From Methylomarinovum caldicuralii (GTDB lineage: Bacteria > Pseudomonadota > Gammaproteobacteria > Methylococcales > Methylothermaceae): 64,000 nt of DNA. The position numbers and the translations under genes are program-made. How positions within the stretch are numbered: the stretch's first letter is position 1; each line of letters begins with the position of its first letter. The stretch lies in contig NZ_AP024714.1 in assembly GCF_033126985.1 (NCBI RefSeq), forward strand, positions 62,001-126,000. Direction: 5' to 3'. The notes beneath the pieces were generated by a model that saw nothing but the letters and a program-made list of their open reading frames with translations, was not told the origin of the DNA and searched no databases. Below are positions 9,530 to 52,724 of the stretch, piece after piece.

Positions 9530-10528
9530 ATGGCCTCCATTATAACCCAGCCCTCCCCCCTGCCGGCGTGGCGCCGGGAACTGGCTGAGGGTTTCAAGCG
9601 CCCGGAGGAATTGCTCGCCTTCCTGGGGCTGCCCGCCAGCGGCTGGGATGCGGCCGCGCAGCGGGATTTCCCCCTGCGCGTCCCCCGGGCCTTCGCCCGG
9701 CGGATGCGCCGCGGCGATCCCGACGATCCGCTGCTGCGCCAGGTACTGCCGCTGGCGGCGGAGAACGCGGTCGCCCCGGGATTCGTCAGCGACCCGGTGG
9801 GGGACGGCCGCGCCCGGGCCGCCCCGGGACTGCTGCACAAATATCACGGCCGCGCCCTGCTGGTCACCACCGGGGCCTGCGCGATCCACTGCCGCTACTG
9901 CTTCCGGCGTCATTTCCCCTATTCCCGGGCGCAGCTGACCCCCGCGCGCCTGCGGCCAGCGCTCGACTATCTGCGGCGTCATGAGGAGATCAGCGAGATC
10001 ATCCTCAGCGGCGGCGACCCGCTGATGCTCGCCGATGCCCGGCTGAGCGGGCTGATCCGGGCTCTGGAGGACATTCCCCAGCTGCGCCGCCTGCGCCTGC
10101 ACACCCGCCTGCCGGTGGTCCTGCCCAGCCGGATCACCGAGGCGCTGACCGAGCGGCTGGCCGCATCCCGCCTACAATGCGTGATCGTGGTGCACGTCAA
10201 CCACGCCAACGAGATCGACGCCGATGTCGCGGCGGCGGTGACCCGGCTGCGCCAGGCGGGCATCACCGTCCTCAACCAGGGCACCCTGCTGGCCGGCGTC
10301 AACGACACCCTGGGAGCGCTCGTCGCCCTGCAGGAGCAGTGCTTTGCCACCGGGATCCTGCCCTATTACCTGCACCTGCTGGACCGCACGCGGGGAACCG
10401 ACCACTTTGAGGTGGAGGCGCTGCGGGCCAGGGAGCTCTACGAGGCCCTCCGCCGCCGCCTGCCCGGCTATCTCACACCCCGTCTGGCGCGCGAAAGCCC
10501 CGGAGCTCCCTATAAAATCTGGTTTTAG
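9530..10528 (+). CDS. epmB: EF-P lysine 2,3-aminomutase-like EpmB
   Basis: A 332-residue radical SAM enzyme of the KamA/EpmB family. The [4Fe-4S] motif CxxxCxxC is C117/C121/C124 (CAIHCRYC), followed by RRHFPY. GGDPL is the usual SAM-side motif. It converts (S)-lysine to (R)-beta-lysine for EpmA. The N-terminus (MASIITQ, then LLAFLGL and LRVPRAF) aligns with E. coli EpmB, supporting this ATG. It is transcribed away from efp with only 34 nt between the start codons, so the modification enzymes and their target form one locus. Confidence 0.95.
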   Translation: MASIITQPSPLPAWRRELAEGFKRPEELLAFLGLPASGWDAAAQRDFPLRVPRAFARRMRRGDPDDPLLRQVLPLAAENAVAPGFVSDPVGDGRARAAPGLLHKYHGRALLVTTGACAIHCRYCFRRHFPYSRAQLTPARLRPALDYLRRHEEISEIILSGGDPLMLADARLSGLIRALEDIPQLRRLRLHTRLPVVLPSRITEALTERLAASRLQCVIVVHVNHANEIDADVAAAVTRLRQAGITVLNQGTLLAGVNDTLGALVALQEQCFATGILPYYLHLLDRTRGTDHFEVEALRARELYEALRRRLPGYLTPRLARESPGAPYKIWF

Positions 10529-10562
10529 ATCAAAAACATATCGCGGCGATATGGTATTGATC
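10528..10562. promoter_or_regulatory. 35-bp interrupted dyad, candidate operator
   Basis: An inverted repeat centred on 10545. The inner arms CATATCGC/GCGATATG are perfect around a single G. The outer arms GATCAA/TTGATC are also perfect, with three unpaired positions per arm between. It starts on the epmB stop codon and ends 11 nt upstream of a -35 box. No T-run follows, so a terminator is unlikely. The position suits a dimeric regulator binding upstream of the promoter of the small lipoprotein gene. The regulator is unknown. Confidence 0.6.
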
Positions 10563-10573
10563 GACAACAGGTG

Positions 10574-10602
10574 TTGAATTATTTCCTCATCTTCGCTATA
10601 AC
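10574..10602 (+). promoter_or_regulatory. Sigma-70 promoter of the small lipoprotein gene
   Basis: TTGAAT (10574-10579), a 17-nt spacer, then TATAAC (10597-10602). Two near-consensus hexamers at ideal spacing in otherwise GC-rich DNA. Transcription would begin near 10609, giving a leader of about 55 nt. Confidence 0.7.
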
Positions 10603-10663
10603 CACACCCGTGCATTGAGCACTCAATAACAATCGTTCACGACGATACGACGAGGAGGAAAAC

Positions 10664-10795
10664 ATGAAGAAAATTCTTGGCATCCTGGCCCTGGCGATGA
10701 TTTCCGTCAGCCTGATGGGTTGCGATCCGGCCGGTGAACCCACCAACAAGCAGCGTCTTTCCAGCGCTGACGTCGAGCACAGCACCGCTGCCTGA
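10664..10795 (+). CDS. Small lipoprotein of 43 residues, unknown function
   Basis: Opens with MKKILGILAL, a short signal peptide ending in LMGC with Cys20 as the lipidation site. The mature part is only 24 residues (Cys20 to Ala43), polar, with Asp at +2. In E. coli Asp at +2 keeps lipoproteins in the inner membrane, so this one may avoid the Lol pathway. It has a strong Shine-Dalgarno (GAGGAGG), a sigma-70 promoter, an upstream dyad and its own terminator, so it looks like a genuine monocistronic gene. I recognise no family. Confidence 0.75.
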   Translation: MKKILGILALAMISVSLMGCDPAGEPTNKQRLSSADVEHSTAA

Positions 10796-10846
10796 TTCAG
10801 AATCCCAACGCCCAATCTGATAACAATAACGACAAGACGCGATTCG

Positions 10847-10873
10847 ACCCGGGGAGCGATCCCCGGGTTTTTT
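10847..10873 (+). terminator. Rho-independent terminator after the small lipoprotein
   Basis: A perfect 9-bp stem (ACCCGGGGA/TCCCCGGGT) with a GCGA loop, running into six T residues (10868-10873). It isolates the lipoprotein unit from gshA. Confidence 0.9.
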
Positions 10874-10895: not shown

Positions 10896-10901
10896 TATAA
10901 T
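10896..10901 (+). promoter_or_regulatory. -10 box of the gshA promoter
   Basis: A perfect TATAAT 38 nt upstream of the gshA start. Only a weak -35 (TTATTG at 18-nt spacing, overlapping the T-run of the terminator) is visible. Confidence 0.45.
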
Positions 10902-10939: not shown

Positions 10940-12535
10940 TTGAACACCCACCGCTTCCAGCAGCGTCTGGCAAGCCTGGCCACGCTGCCGTTGCCGCTGT
11001 CCCCTGTCCTGGGCCTGAAGGGGCTGGAAAAGGAGAGCCTGCGCGTCACCCGTGACGGCCGCATCGCCCGGACGCCGCATCCACAGGCCCTGGGATCGGC
11101 GCTGACACACCCGCACATCACCACCGATTATTCGGAAGCGCTGTTGGAGTTCATCACCCCTCCGGCCGAACTTCCCGAGACCGGCCTGGGTTTTCTCGAC
11201 GAGATTCACCGCTTCGTCTACGCCGTCCTGCCGCAGGACGAACTGCTGCTGTGCACCAGCATGCCCATCGGCTTCGAACGGGACGAGGACATCCCCATCG
11301 CCCGTTACGGGGACTCCAACATCGGGCGGATGAAACACATCTACCGGGTCGGGCTGGCCTACCGCTACGGCCGGGCGATGCAGGCCATCGCCGGTATCCA
11401 TTTCAACTATTCGCTGCCGACCGCGCTGTGGCCGGCGCTCAGCCCGCTGCTGGAACTGGGACCGGCCTCCCGGGCCAGTCAGGCGGCGGCCTATTTCGCC
11501 CTCATCCGCAACGTGTTGCGCTACGGTTGGCTGCTGCTCTACCTGTTCGGCGCCTCGCCGGCGGTGGATCGTCGCTTTCTCACCTGCCGCGGCGGCATTC
11601 CCCAGGGCTTCGAGGAGCTGACGCCCGACACGTTCGCGCCGCCCTTCGCCACTTCCCTGCGGATGAGCGACATCGGCTACAAGAACAAGACCCAGGCAGC
11701 CCTGTTCATCTCCACCAACACCCTGGACGAATACGTCCGCAGCCTGTGCCACGCCATCGAAACCCCCCACCCGCCCTATCAGGCGATCGGCGTCAAGGTC
11801 GGTGACCGCTACCGTCAGCTCAACGCCAACATCCTCCAGATCGAGAACGAATACTACAGCCCCATCCGTCCCAAACAGATCGCCCGGCCGTACGAAAAGC
11901 CCACCCTGGCGCTCAAGCGACGCGGGGTCCGCTACGTGGAGCTGCGCGCCCTGGATCTCGACCCGTTCGAGCCGCTGGGGATCGGCGTCGGGCAGATGCG
12001 TTTCCTCGAACTGTTCCTGTGGTTCTGCCTGCTGCAGGACAGCCCGCCGCTGGACCGCGAGGAACACCAATGCTGCCAGCACAATCTGCTGCTGACCGCC
12101 CAGCGGGGCCGGGATCCGCAGCTGCGCCTCCGGGACGACGGCGGGGAGATCCCGCTGCGGCAGTGGGCCGAACGGATTCTAGCCTGCCTGGAACCCTTGA
12201 GCCGCCTGTTCGACGAACAGGGCGGCGCCGGCGCCTACGGACAGGCGCTGGCCGACCAGCAACGCAAGGTGGCCGATGCCGCACACACCCCCTCGGCGCG
12301 CATGATCGCCGAAATGACCTCCCGAAGCGAACCGTTCACCGCCTTCGCCCTGCGCCTGTCCCAGGCCCATGCCGACCACTTCCGCCAGCGTCCGCTGCCA
12401 GAGGAGCGGCGCCGCTGGTTCGAGCAGCAGGCGCAGCGCTCGTGGGCCGACCAGCACCGTCTGGAACAGGAGGACCGGCTCAGCTTCGAGGAATTCCTGC
12501 GGCGTTATTTCAGCGAAACCTGTCAGGCAGCCTAG
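10940..12535 (+). CDS. gshA: Glutamate-cysteine ligase
   Basis: A 531-residue ligase of the proteobacterial (E. coli GshA) class, close to the usual 518 residues. It makes gamma-glutamylcysteine from glutamate, cysteine and ATP, the first step of glutathione synthesis. Family hallmarks include GLEKESLRV near the N-terminus, DYSEALLEFITPP, RYGDSNIGRMKHIYRVGLA and the C-terminal AEMTSRSEPF. The start is a TTG at 10940 with GGGAGA about 9 nt upstream; no better in-frame start precedes the conserved region. It lies next to cysH and cysB, a natural pairing because cysteine is its substrate. Confidence 0.95.
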   Translation: MNTHRFQQRLASLATLPLPLSPVLGLKGLEKESLRVTRDGRIARTPHPQALGSALTHPHITTDYSEALLEFITPPAELPETGLGFLDEIHRFVYAVLPQDELLLCTSMPIGFERDEDIPIARYGDSNIGRMKHIYRVGLAYRYGRAMQAIAGIHFNYSLPTALWPALSPLLELGPASRASQAAAYFALIRNVLRYGWLLLYLFGASPAVDRRFLTCRGGIPQGFEELTPDTFAPPFATSLRMSDIGYKNKTQAALFISTNTLDEYVRSLCHAIETPHPPYQAIGVKVGDRYRQLNANILQIENEYYSPIRPKQIARPYEKPTLALKRRGVRYVELRALDLDPFEPLGIGVGQMRFLELFLWFCLLQDSPPLDREEHQCCQHNLLLTAQRGRDPQLRLRDDGGEIPLRQWAERILACLEPLSRLFDEQGGAGAYGQALADQQRKVADAAHTPSARMIAEMTSRSEPFTAFALRLSQAHADHFRQRPLPEERRRWFEQQAQRSWADQHRLEQEDRLSFEEFLRRYFSETCQAA

Positions 12536-12576: not shown

Positions 12577-13299
12577 ATGAGCCAGGTGGAATTCGATCTG
12601 GAACACTGGCAGACGGTACTGGCGGGCAAAAAACCCAACGCCATCCTGAGGGCCGCCTTCGAACACTTCGAGAATATCGCCATCGCCTTCAGCGGCGCCG
12701 AGGACGTGGTGCTTATCGATCTGGCCTGCCGCCTCCACGACCACGTCCAGGTCTTCACCCTGGATACCGGCCGCCTGCATCCGGAAACCTACCGTTTCAT
12801 CGAACAGGTGCGCGAGCGTTACCCGATAGAGCTGGATGTCCTCTATCCCGATGCCGAGGCTGTTCGTGATCTGGTCGGCCGCAAGGGGCTGTTCAGCTTC
12901 TACCGCGACGGCCATCAGGAATGCTGCGCCATCCGCAAGGTCGGCCCCCTGAAACGCAAGCTGGCGACGCTGGACGCCTGGATCACCGGCCAGCGCCGCG
13001 ATCAGAATCCCGACACCCGCGCCACCCTGGTGGAGGTGGAGGCGGATAGCGCCTTCGCAGGGCGCCACGGCCGCCTGATCAAATTCAACCCCCTGTGCAA
13101 CTGGACCTCACAGCAGGTCTGGGATCATATCGAAGCCTTCGAAGTCCCCTACAACGCACTGCACCGCCACGGCTTCCGCAGCATCGGCTGCGAACCCTGC
13201 ACCCGCCCCACCCTACCGCACCAGCCGGAACGGGAAGGACGCTGGTGGTGGGAGGAAAGCGCCAAGAAGGAATGCGGCCTCCACCGCAAACCTCAGTAA
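12577..13299 (+). CDS. cysH: Adenylyl-sulfate (APS) reductase, thioredoxin-dependent
   Basis: A 240-residue CysH-family reductase. The PP-loop is AFSGAED (37-43) and the catalytic cysteine is in the C-terminal KKECGLH (C233). It also has CC at 116-117 and CxxC at 205-208 (GCEPC), the four ligands of a [4Fe-4S] cluster. That cluster marks reductases that use APS rather than PAPS; E. coli CysH lacks these cysteines. It reduces activated sulfate to sulfite for cysteine synthesis. It is convergent with cysB, overlapping by 7 bp. Confidence 0.93.
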
Positions 13300-14103
13300 C
13301 GCGGCAGGGAAACCCCGGCGAACAGGGCGTCTATCTCCTGTTTGTCGCGCAGTTTCAGCGCCCGCTCCACCACCTCCCGGCTCAGGTGGGGGGCGAACGC
13401 GTGAATGAAGTCGAAGATGTACCCCCGCACGAAGCTGTCGCGCCGCAGACCGATGCGGGTGACGCTGTCGCGGAACAAATGGCTGGCGTCCAGGGCGACC
13501 AGATCCGCATCAGCTTGCGGATCGTAGGCCATGTGGGCCACGATCCCCACCCCCAGGCCGAGACGGACGTAGGTCTTGATGACATCAGAATCGACCGCAG
13601 TCAGCGCCACCTTGGGCTGCAGGTTCTCCCGGGAGAAGGCCTCGTCGAGTTTGGAGCGGCCGGTAAAACCGAACACGTAAGTGATGAGGGGATACTGGGC
13701 GATGTCCTGGAGTGACAGCCCTTCCTTCTCCGCCAGCGGATGCCCCCGCGGCACCAGAATACAGCGGTTCCAGCGGTAACAGGGCAGCATCACCAGGTTG
13801 TCGAACAGCTCCATCGCCTCCGTCGCGATCGCCAGATCCGCCTCCCCTTTGGAAACCATGTCGGCGATCTGCACCGGCGTTCCCTGGTGCATGGTCAGGC
13901 TGACCTGGGGATAACGCTGCATGAACGCCCGCACCACCCTGGGAAGGGCGTAACGGGCCTGGGTATGGGTAGTGGCGATGGCCAGCGTTCCGCTGCGCTC
14001 GTCCCGGAACTCGTCGGCGACGTGACGAATGTCATCCACCTTGGAGAGAATCTCCCCTGCAAGCTGAATGATCAGTTTGCCGGCCGGGGTGATTTCGGGC
14101 CGG
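13293..14103 (-). CDS. cysB: CysB regulator, 3' exon (effector-binding domain)
   Basis: The C-terminal about 270 residues of a LysR-type regulator, from [11 protein letters not shown] to the stop. The CysB signature [10 protein letters not shown], followed by [26 protein letters not shown] and MLPCYRWNR, separates it from other LysR proteins. CysB controls sulfate assimilation, sensing (N- or O-)acetylserine. The helix-turn-helix half lies about 2 kb upstream, beyond the group II intron. An ATG-like start inside the intron 3' end can be read in frame but gives no DNA-binding domain. The exon edge is uncertain by about 3 nt. Confidence 0.9.
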
Positions 14104-14172
14104 GTGACCGCGGGCGATTGCTCACCCGCGGTTCCCACAGATCCGGACGTGCCCGATTAAGGCATCCGGCTC
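14104..14172 (-). ncRNA. Group II intron domains V and VI
   Basis: Domain V spans 14172 to 14139, exactly 34 nt: it begins GAGCCGGATGCC (with the AGC catalytic triad), has a short loop, and ends CACGTCCGGATCT. Domain VI follows as an ACCGCGGG/CCCGCGGT stem with a 10-nt A-containing loop that could hold the branch-point adenosine. The intron 3' end lies just after it (TCAC). Both elements look intact. Confidence 0.85.
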
Positions 14173-14178
14173 CTCGGA

Positions 14179-15492
14179 CTATGGCGTCGCTACGCAACGG
14201 GCAATTCCGTGAACCACGCGCGGTGGGGGGAGTGGGTATCGTTTGTACAGCCGCCCAAAATGGTCCCGGTTCATCCGTTCCCGGTTGCGGCGGGACAACC
14301 ATTTGTACCAGCGCCGTCTGACCTCGTACAGGAAGCGGGCCAGCGATTGGCTGTTGCCGACGATCCCATAGTAGGCATAATGCCCCTTGAGTTTGCGGCT
14401 CAGGGCCGCTTGTTGGTCTGCAACCGGCCAGTGGCGGTGCATCCGGCACCAGTGGTTGATCGCCTGCAGGGAGCGGCTGAGCCGGGCTTGGGCGGTCTTG
14501 CGTTTGACGACCCAACGCCCTTTCCTTGAGCGTCCCCAGTAGTGGGTGAATCCCAGGTATTGGAAGCTCTGGCCTTTCCGTCCGGGTTTTCTGAAGTCGA
14601 GCAGGCGGGTTTTGTCCGGGTGCAGGCGCAGGCCGTATTTGGCCAGGCGCTTGCCCAGAACGGCCAATACCCGCCGGGCGTCTTCTTCCCGTTTGAACAC
14701 CAGGACCGCATCGTCGGCGAACCGGACTTCGAAGGCGCTGCCTTGCAGTCGCGGTTTGACCGTCTGCTCGAACCACAGGTCGAGCACGTGATGCAGGTAG
14801 AGGTTGGCCAGCAGTGGGGAGATCACCCCACCTTGCGGTGTCCCTTGTTCGGGGTAGTGAAGCTGTCCGCCTTCCATGACACCGGCATTCAGCCATTTAC
14901 CGATCACGCGGCAGATCACGCCGTCGCGCACCCTCTGCCCCAGAAAGTTCCGCAGCCGGTCCCGGTCCACATCGTCGAAGAAGTTTTGGATGTCCAGGTC
15001 GATGACCCAGCCACCGCCCATGGCCATCAGCCCGCCCCATAGCCTCTCCAGGGCCTGGTGGGCACTGCGTCCGGGCCGGAACCCGTAGGCGCAGTCGAGA
15101 AAGTCCTGCTCGAAGATGGGTTCCAGCGCCATCAGCACCGCCCGTTGCAGCACCTTGTCTTCCAGCGTGGGAATGCCGATCGGGCGGGTCTTTCCCGTTC
15201 CCGGCTTGGGCAGGTGGACGCGCCGTACCGCAGGCGCCCGATACCGGCCGGTCTTGAACCGTTCCAGCAGGCGCGTCAGGTTCTCCTCTAAGTCGGCTGC
15301 GTATTGGGATGCAGTCACGCCGTCCACCCCGGCGGCCCCGTCCTTGCGGGTGCGCCGCCAGGCTTCTTCCAGCCACACCACGTCGATGTGGTGGGCAATC
15401 GTGGTCAGTTCCAGCTTCGGTTCGATCCGGGCCAGTTCCGCTAGCTTCCGTTGTCGTGTTGAGATGTTCTCCTGGCTCGATGTCCCGGCCAT
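14179..15492 (-). CDS. ltrA: Group II intron reverse transcriptase/maturase
   Basis: A 437-residue intron-encoded protein located in domain IV. Reverse transcriptase motifs are in order: [47 protein letters not shown] (216-228) and FADD (258-261) as the catalytic box. The maturase X domain follows. It ends with [13 protein letters not shown] and shows no HNH endonuclease domain, so this is an En-minus type. The start at 15492 is chosen over 15513 because GGAGGG lies 4 nt upstream of it. Its stop is only 6 nt from domain V. It promotes splicing and retrohoming. No frameshift or stop is seen. Confidence 0.95.
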
Positions 15493-16011
15493 CTGTCCCT
15501 CCGAAAGCCCCATCGTCCGACCTGCCGCTTCCCTCCATCGGGTCCCTTGGGGCAGGTTCCCCGACTTCCCAGGTACTATCGGCAGGCTCCGATTGCTCGA
15601 TCACCTTCCCAGCGCGCTTCGTCGCCTTCGCGCGCCGGTACCCTGCTTCGTGTCCCGTTCGCTCCCATCGGCCGGACACCGCTCCGATGGGCCTGGGCCT
15701 TTTCTCACACGGCGCCCGCACCGCTCTTCCCGCAAGGAGTGATCGAGCCCTCCCAGGTTCCTGGGCGACCCTTGCCCTGCATGCCCCGCTCTTCGACCCC
15801 GGCGGAGGGATGATGCCAGGCCAGTACAGCACCACCCCTGTTGCCTTCCGTCCGTTCAACAACGTCGGCTCCGCATTCCGTACTTTCGAGGCTCCATCAC
15901 GCGGCCTACAGGCCCCCTGTGTACGCTTCGCAGTCGGGATCGCTCCTCGACCACGCAACACTCGGTTCCGGCTGGTGGCCAGCCTTGGCCGGACAGGACT
16001 TGCACCTGTCA

Positions 16012-16257
<246 letters not shown>

Positions 16258-16295
16258 TCAATTCAGAATAGAAAAATAATTATTTAATACTTTTA

Positions 16296-16323
16296 ATTAT
16301 AAGACGATTCTCCGATAATTCAA
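16296..16323 (-). promoter_or_regulatory. cysB promoter in the AT-rich divergent region
   Basis: On the minus strand TTGAAT (16323-16318), a 16-nt spacer, then TATAAT (16301-16296), giving a leader of about 35 nt to the cysB ATG. The 95-bp cysB/exporter intergenic region is strikingly AT-rich compared with its surroundings, as expected for LysR-type operators. On the plus strand TTTTAA (16291) and GATAAT (16314) at 17-nt spacing could serve the exporter gene. Confidence 0.6.
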
Positions 16324-52138: not shown

Positions 52139-52724
52139 GGTCGATTTCCCAGCGATCGATCAACAATTTCACACGCACCCCATCAGGACCCAACAACCGC
52201 AGTTTCGTCGGCAACGCTCCTGCGGTAACGACCCCATAGGCCAGATAGTCGACCTCCCAACCCTGTTGCCGCAGCCGCCGCAACCGCCCGGCCGGGTCGT
52301 GCTCGACGGCGGCCGGGCCGGGTGCGGCCAGCCCCAGAACCCAGTAACGCAATGCCGTCAGCGGCACGGCGACGCCCAGCACCTGGTGCAGCAAATGGTT
52401 GGGATCGGCCGATTCCAGCATCCGGCCATCGGGATAGCGCAGCCGGATCCAGCCGGGGCCCGCCTCGACCACCGCCCCACCCTGGCCGAAGGGACCGCTC
52501 AGAACCAGACGGTCCAACCCCTGCCCGTGTTCCCAGCGCAGATGGCCGTGCCAGCTGTCGCGGCCGCCGCTGACACCGATCCGGCCCTGCAGCTGCCAGG
52601 GATGCTCGATCAGCCCGGAACGCCAGCGGCGCTCGGCCTCGCCCACAGCGGGCAAAGGAGGCTTGTGCCAGCCGGCGCAACCCGCCAGCGCCAACAGCAG
52701 CAACAACAGCGGAATGCGGTTCAC
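52125..52724 (-). CDS. lolB: Outer-membrane lipoprotein receptor LolB
   Basis: A 199-residue lipoprotein with lipobox LAGC (Cys16). It receives lipoproteins from LolA and inserts them in the outer membrane. The body has the LolB-type beta sheet pattern (WQLQGRIGVSGG, HGHLRWEHG, and GWEVDYLAYG). The GTG start at 52724 sits in the stop of the upstream TPR gene (GTGA) and gives a proper signal peptide; a longer frame does not. Confidence 0.9.
   Translation of the reverse strand: MNRIPLLLLLLALAGCAGWHKPPLPAVGEAERRWRSGLIEHPWQLQGRIGVSGGRDSWHGHLRWEHGQGLDRLVLSGPFGQGGAVVEAGPGWIRLRYPDGRMLESADPNHLLHQVLGVAVPLTALRYWVLGLAAPGPAAVEHDPAGRLRRLRQQGWEVDYLAYGVVTAGALPTKLRLLGPDGVRVKLLIDRWEIDRDRT

Follow-up and report, generated by a model that had tools for sequence, protein, structure and literature searches.

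Is an open reading frame (ORF) of 43 codons between epmB and gshA in the marine, methane-oxidising bacterium Methylomarinovum caldicuralii a gene, and if so, what might its product do? Genes of such size are easily lost from annotation. A first-pass annotation, made from the sequence alone, had proposed a lipoprotein gene at this locus, with its own promoter, Shine-Dalgarno (SD) sequence and terminator, and with a long dyad upstream. Here we examine this proposal by comparison with related genomes. The window is the whole stretch of 64,000 nucleotides that was analysed, and all positions refer to it unless a contig is named. It comes from a genome (G000) of 2,694,844 bases in one contig; the sister genome (G009) is 2.42 Mb in two contigs. 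The strains M. caldicuralii IT-9 and M. tepidoasis IN45 have been described (PMC10950024). We infer that the window genome is that of IT-9 and that G009 is that of IN45.

Table 1. Features of the epmB-gshA interval and its flanking genes
Feature	Position	Strand	Remarks
epmB (EF-P beta-lysylation protein)	9530-10528	+	upstream neighbour, kept across the genus; stop codon TAG 10526-10528
imperfect dyad ATCAAAAACATATCGC/G/GCGATATGGTATTGAT	10529-10561	.	directly past the epmB stop codon; 16-bp arms, 14/16 paired
promoter TTGAAT-17-TATAAC	10574-10602	+	-35 10574-10579, -10 10597-10602; order-wide form TTG(A/C)AT-17-TATAAA
predicted hairpin GUGC-AUUGA-GCAC	10609-10622 (stem-loop 10610-10622)	+	at the predicted transcription start, 7-8 nt past the -10
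Shine-Dalgarno GAGGAGG	10652-10658	+	5 nt before the ATG; kept in all same-genus relatives
small lipoprotein gene, 43 aa	10664-10795	+	ATG 10664, end of stop codon 10795; evidence from homologues and dN/dS
intrinsic terminator	10846-10873	+	stem GACCCGGGGA/TCCCCGGGTT 10846-10869, 10-bp, G+C-rich, 4-nt loop, then T-run
gshA (glutamate-cysteine ligase)	10940-12535	+	downstream neighbour; own TATAAT element at 10896

A conserved gene for a small lipoprotein

The ORF, the SD sequence, the lipobox and the terminator of the first-pass annotation are all confirmed in the sequence (Table 1). The encoded protein has the layout of a Sec/SPII lipoprotein, with a basic n-region, a hydrophobic h-region and a lipobox ending in Cys (MKK...LMGC). 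Residues 1-19 form the signal peptide, and the lipobox is LMGC. As had been claimed, the mature peptide of the window protein, CDPAGEPTNKQRLSSADVEHSTAA, is 24 residues long and carries Asp at +2. Across homologues the mature part is 18-26 residues long. In an alignment of 25 homologues M1, K2, K3 and C20 are invariant. The core motif of the mature part is C..(S/D)PDG.KQ(K/R), followed by Ser-rich residues, and Leu is the last residue in 48 of 74 members.

How widely is this gene distributed? In a search of 61 genomes it was present in nine of the same genus, including the window's own, every time between epmB (NCBIfam match TIGR03821, 447 bits) and gshA (TIGR01434, 548 bits). For more distant relatives we used a profile of 17 sequences. 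The families coded f1, f4 and f8 are, we assume, the Methylothermaceae, Methylococcaceae and Methylomonadaceae. The first-pass annotation had staked its gene on conservation of the ORF and lipobox in relatives, and this is what the profile revealed, with matches at E<=1e-9 in 211 of 234 Methylococcales genomes (f1 9/10, f3 1/1, f4 31/31 and f8 170/179). Diverged forms are carried by f2 and f3, for example MKKLLSIIAIIMVTFGSLSACLDDPNVQTQRPQSGKYGAD in f3, and no convincing match was found by the profile search in f5, f6 (0/10) or f7. Nine f8 genomes and one same-genus genome also gave no convincing match; the gene may be dispensable there, or the assemblies may have gaps. Beyond the order, no convincing relative was found among about 660 Pseudomonadota (a class sample of 370 genomes and a phylum sample of 299), and the only two weak matches (E 7e-6 to 9e-6) covered profile positions 1 to 23-28, mostly signal peptide.

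Pfam gave no family at E<=1 for the 43-aa protein, and it was not recognised by NCBIfam, in which weak matches (E 0.03) lay mainly over the signal peptide and far under the cut-offs; the first-pass annotation had likewise recognised no family. This is an order-wide mini-lipoprotein family that is missing from the curated libraries searched (Pfam and NCBIfam). In the papers on methanotroph expression that were searched, nothing on the gene was found.

The median dN/dS is 0.11 overall, with 0.05 in the mature region versus 0.14 in the signal peptide (201 comparable pairs, which are not mutually independent), and selection therefore acts on the mature peptide. Judged by its sequence, the 43-residue ORF is a real gene for a strongly conserved mini-lipoprotein. 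In nearly all of the Methylococcales methanotrophs examined, strong selection has preserved the gene along with its promoter and leader. At four loci (L014, L016, L044 and L049, from genus g12 and others) there are two or three tandem copies, among which one paralogue type has a differing mature part, CMDDPDQGNPKPKNYGTPNQVGSGVN, that resembles the QRP..GKYG form of f3.

The transcription unit

In other families the gene is found in unrelated places, yet the same promoter, 5' hairpin and terminator accompany it in nearly every case. Because these travel with the gene across unrelated neighbourhoods, it is its own unit. The recurrent order, present at 74 loci in several unrelated neighbourhoods, is TTG(A/C)AT, 17 nt, TATAAA, about 6 nt, GTGC(T)...(A)G(C/T)AC, an A-rich leader, a strong SD sequence and the ORF. 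The conserved entity is a predicted monocistronic unit made up of the promoter, the GUGC...GCAC hairpin, the A-rich leader, the strong SD sequence and the terminator.

The promoter had been described as near-consensus with 17-nt spacing. The spacing holds, being 17 nt in 62 of 72 loci, and so does the conservation, with TATAAA as the -10 of relatives; the window promoter itself is not quite consensus, matching at 4/6 (-35) and 5/6 (-10) positions. It is absent from the list of an automatic promoter scan that requires T as the final -10 base. At the other end of the unit, the fold of the terminator beats all 200 shuffles (z = -3.7). A computed intrinsic terminator is found at the corresponding position in 71 of the 74 homologous loci, and its stem sequence differs between lineages.

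A putative hairpin at the predicted transcription start

Along with the order-wide spread of the gene, the first-pass annotation had overlooked a conserved 5'-terminal hairpin at the predicted start. Counting 7 nt from the -10 to +1 puts the first base of the stem at +1 or +2, and the stem score along the leader sequence peaks exactly at the predicted +1. Over 15 mutually dissimilar leaders the mean stem score at +1 is 13.0, versus 6.6 in dinucleotide shuffles (z = 5.2; 0 of 1000 shuffle rounds as high). Single leaders, including that of the window (z = -0.5), are mostly non-significant alone, and the signal resides in the set. In the short-loop set the 4-bp stem pairs in 100% of cells, and pairing over the whole structure is 91.1%, which drops to 21-60% when the structure is slid. 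The few double changes concern the fourth pair, where f3 has U-A for C-G, and the loop-closing pair. Covariation is limited because the GUGC/GCAC core is nearly invariant in f1 and f4.

The dyad downstream of epmB

The dyad had been placed 11 nt upstream of the -35 and counted as part of the unit. It is present, with arms that end 12 nt before the -35, and its fold beats all 200 shuffles, with z from -3.7 to -4.9 in M. caldicuralii. Among the nine same-genus loci, however, it is strong in M. caldicuralii, decayed in M. tepidoasis (z -2.6) and absent in the seven others. In addition, no full second copy was found in the M. caldicuralii genome. For these two reasons it was rejected as a regulatory site of the lipoprotein unit, outside which it probably lies. 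It may instead be a hairpin that protects the 3' end of the epmB mRNA. On the minus strand a T-run comes after the dyad, which gives it the appearance of a terminator.

Localisation and possible role

Where would the lipoprotein reside? In E. coli, Asp at +2 can hold a lipoprotein in the inner membrane, and the first-pass annotation had read the Asp of the window protein in this way. Inner-membrane retention, by avoidance of Lol, was rejected as a family trait because only 4 of 74 members have Asp at +2, where Met (37) and Gly (24) predominate, followed by Leu (4), Ile (3) and Ser (2); Met, Gly, Leu and Ile together account for 68/74. Since LolB is present (5 of 5 genomes tested), sorting to the outer membrane is the likelier predicted fate in most species. 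The Asp-Pro at +2/+3 of the window protein is compatible with either membrane.

The gene is probably transcribed constitutively, and transcription would start at the GUGC hairpin. In the E. coli ompA mRNA a 5'-terminal stem stabilises the message, and the stem described here could likewise shield its mRNA from decay that depends on the 5' end, while the unstructured A-rich leader and strong SD sequence would give heavy translation. After lipidation by Lgt, the prolipoprotein would be cleaved by LspA just ahead of Cys20 and then acylated by Lnt; in most species Lol would carry the product to the periplasmic side of the outer membrane. In this place the hydrophilic lipopeptide of 18-26 residues would be an abundant, small component of the envelope. 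It might be a peptide for the packing or tuning of the outer membrane, or, by way of the PDG.KQ(K/R) motif, the partner of a single envelope protein.

We give about an even chance to this explanation as a whole, that is, to an autonomous, constitutively transcribed gene for a very short Methylococcales lipoprotein that acts as an abundant envelope component. The conservation itself covers the gene, its lipobox, promoter and terminator, and the mature peptide. It is from the promoter, leader and SD sequence only that we infer that the mRNA is stable and abundant and that the small lipoprotein is abundant in the envelope. A bolder version seems to us rather improbable: here the protein would be a core lipopeptide of gammaproteobacterial methanotrophs, would rank with the most abundant molecules of their envelope and would be required for a trait peculiar to methanotrophs, for instance intracytoplasmic membranes or the housing of the methane-oxidation machinery. 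As a lineage-wide lipoprotein gene it is a good candidate for envelope biology peculiar to methane oxidisers; the promoter and leader could also be of use as parts for gene expression in engineered methanotrophs.

Alternative explanations

Might the lipoprotein be a small protein dedicated to one membrane machine, as its partner or regulator, in the way that AcrZ serves AcrB? The machine could be a pump, the particulate methane monooxygenase (pMMO) or a 634-aa membrane protein with a DCC1-like thiol-oxidoreductase domain (PF04134). The gene for the last of these (L060:5072-6976 and relatives) lies directly upstream of the lipoprotein gene in Methylomonadaceae, in 11 of 12 loci from different genera. 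The 634-aa protein is also present in 16 of 16 tested genomes with the lipoprotein and in 0 of 2 f6 genomes without it, and pmoCAB lies 1-5 kb beyond the locus in three genera (g8, g36 and g37). However, this co-occurrence may reflect clade history only. The 634-aa gene, found in all f1 and f4 genomes tested, lies elsewhere, among unrelated neighbours, in f1, f4 and genus g21, and in f1 the neighbours of the lipoprotein gene are epmB and gshA. A functional link with pMMO was rejected, as the adjacency is confined to those three genera and as f6 and f7 have pmoA-like genes without the lipoprotein. The link to the 634-aa protein is a weak lead from synteny in f8 only, and a dedicated partner is on balance unlikely.

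Alternatively, the GTGC-N-GCAC element could be a DNA operator and not an RNA hairpin, and the lipoprotein would then be a regulated, for example stress-induced, one. The near-invariance of the core in f1 and f4 would suit an operator, as would its overlap with the transcription start, the usual position of a repressor. In contrast, the spacing between half-sites ranges from 3 to 16 nt, and a loop this variable fits a putative RNA stem better; in f3 the sequence is altered on both sides (GUGUC/GACAC). Three genomes of the same genus (G000, G009 and G008) each have a single composite site, in every case at the lipoprotein gene. There is therefore no sign of a regulon, which was rejected, and we consider an operator distinctly unlikely. 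Even less credence is due to an entericidin-like membrane peptide, acting in a toxin/antidote pair or as a stress-lysis lipoprotein. EcnA and EcnB (PF08085) are lipoproteins of about 40-48 aa, similar in size and architecture and sometimes in tandem, and tandem diverged copies are found here in g12 and related genomes. However, PF08085 matched neither the protein nor anything in eight genomes, the motif is a different one, and the gene is usually single copy, with a 5' hairpin and a strong housekeeping-type promoter that would be odd for a toxin. Finally, the unit could specify a non-coding or dual-function RNA in which the ORF is incidental. The predicted transcript is short and discrete, with structured 5' and 3' ends, but the low dN/dS of the mature region makes this highly improbable. 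In addition, the 3' UTR is unconserved except for a terminator, and Rfam 15 gave no match at the gathering threshold (best E 0.077, far below the gathering score of that family).

Comparison with other small proteins

An envelope lipopeptide as proposed here would have parallels among known proteins. LptM (YifL, PF13627) is also a very short lipoprotein, and its mature part is likewise hydrophilic and conserved immediately past the Cys, but its motif, CG.KGPL, differs from the one found here. Identity with LptM was rejected, as 7 of 7 Methylococcales genomes tested have a separate LptM-like gene, that of the window genome at G000:C1:899025. Braun's Lpp of E. coli likewise comes from a short, monocistronic unit whose signals are strong and whose transcript is compact. 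Unlike Lpp, the proteins described here are without a conserved C-terminal Lys for attachment to peptidoglycan, and their mature parts are too short for an Lpp-type coiled coil.

Two further cases come from methanotrophs. In Methylacidiphilum fumariolicum SolV a highly expressed lipoprotein of 139 aa, WP_009060351, has an N-terminal part limited to methanotrophic genera (PMC10260701). It is verrucomicrobial and serves as a parallel only. WatS1-WatS5 of Methylomonas sp. DH-1 come from unannotated ORFs about 50 aa long, and some contain a single hydrophobic segment; their promoters carry a WatR site, ATTGTT-N11-AACAA (PMC10355033). These and the mini-lipoprotein genes are all tiny Methylococcales ORFs, compared here by their promoters: over the -35, the site was found with fewer than two mismatches in 0 of 74 lipoprotein loci and with two mismatches in 3.

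Other genes in the window

A LolB gene is also present in the window, at about 52149-52601 on the minus strand (G000:C1:114149-114601). Beyond gshA, cysB is split by a group II intron (13293-16300, minus strand). Its N-terminal part lies at about 16.0-16.3 kb and the rest at 13293-14100; between the two parts lie, at 15787-16002, a match to an intron RNA (RF02005, 151.9 bits) and, at 14179-15513, an ORF that resembles a reverse transcriptase.
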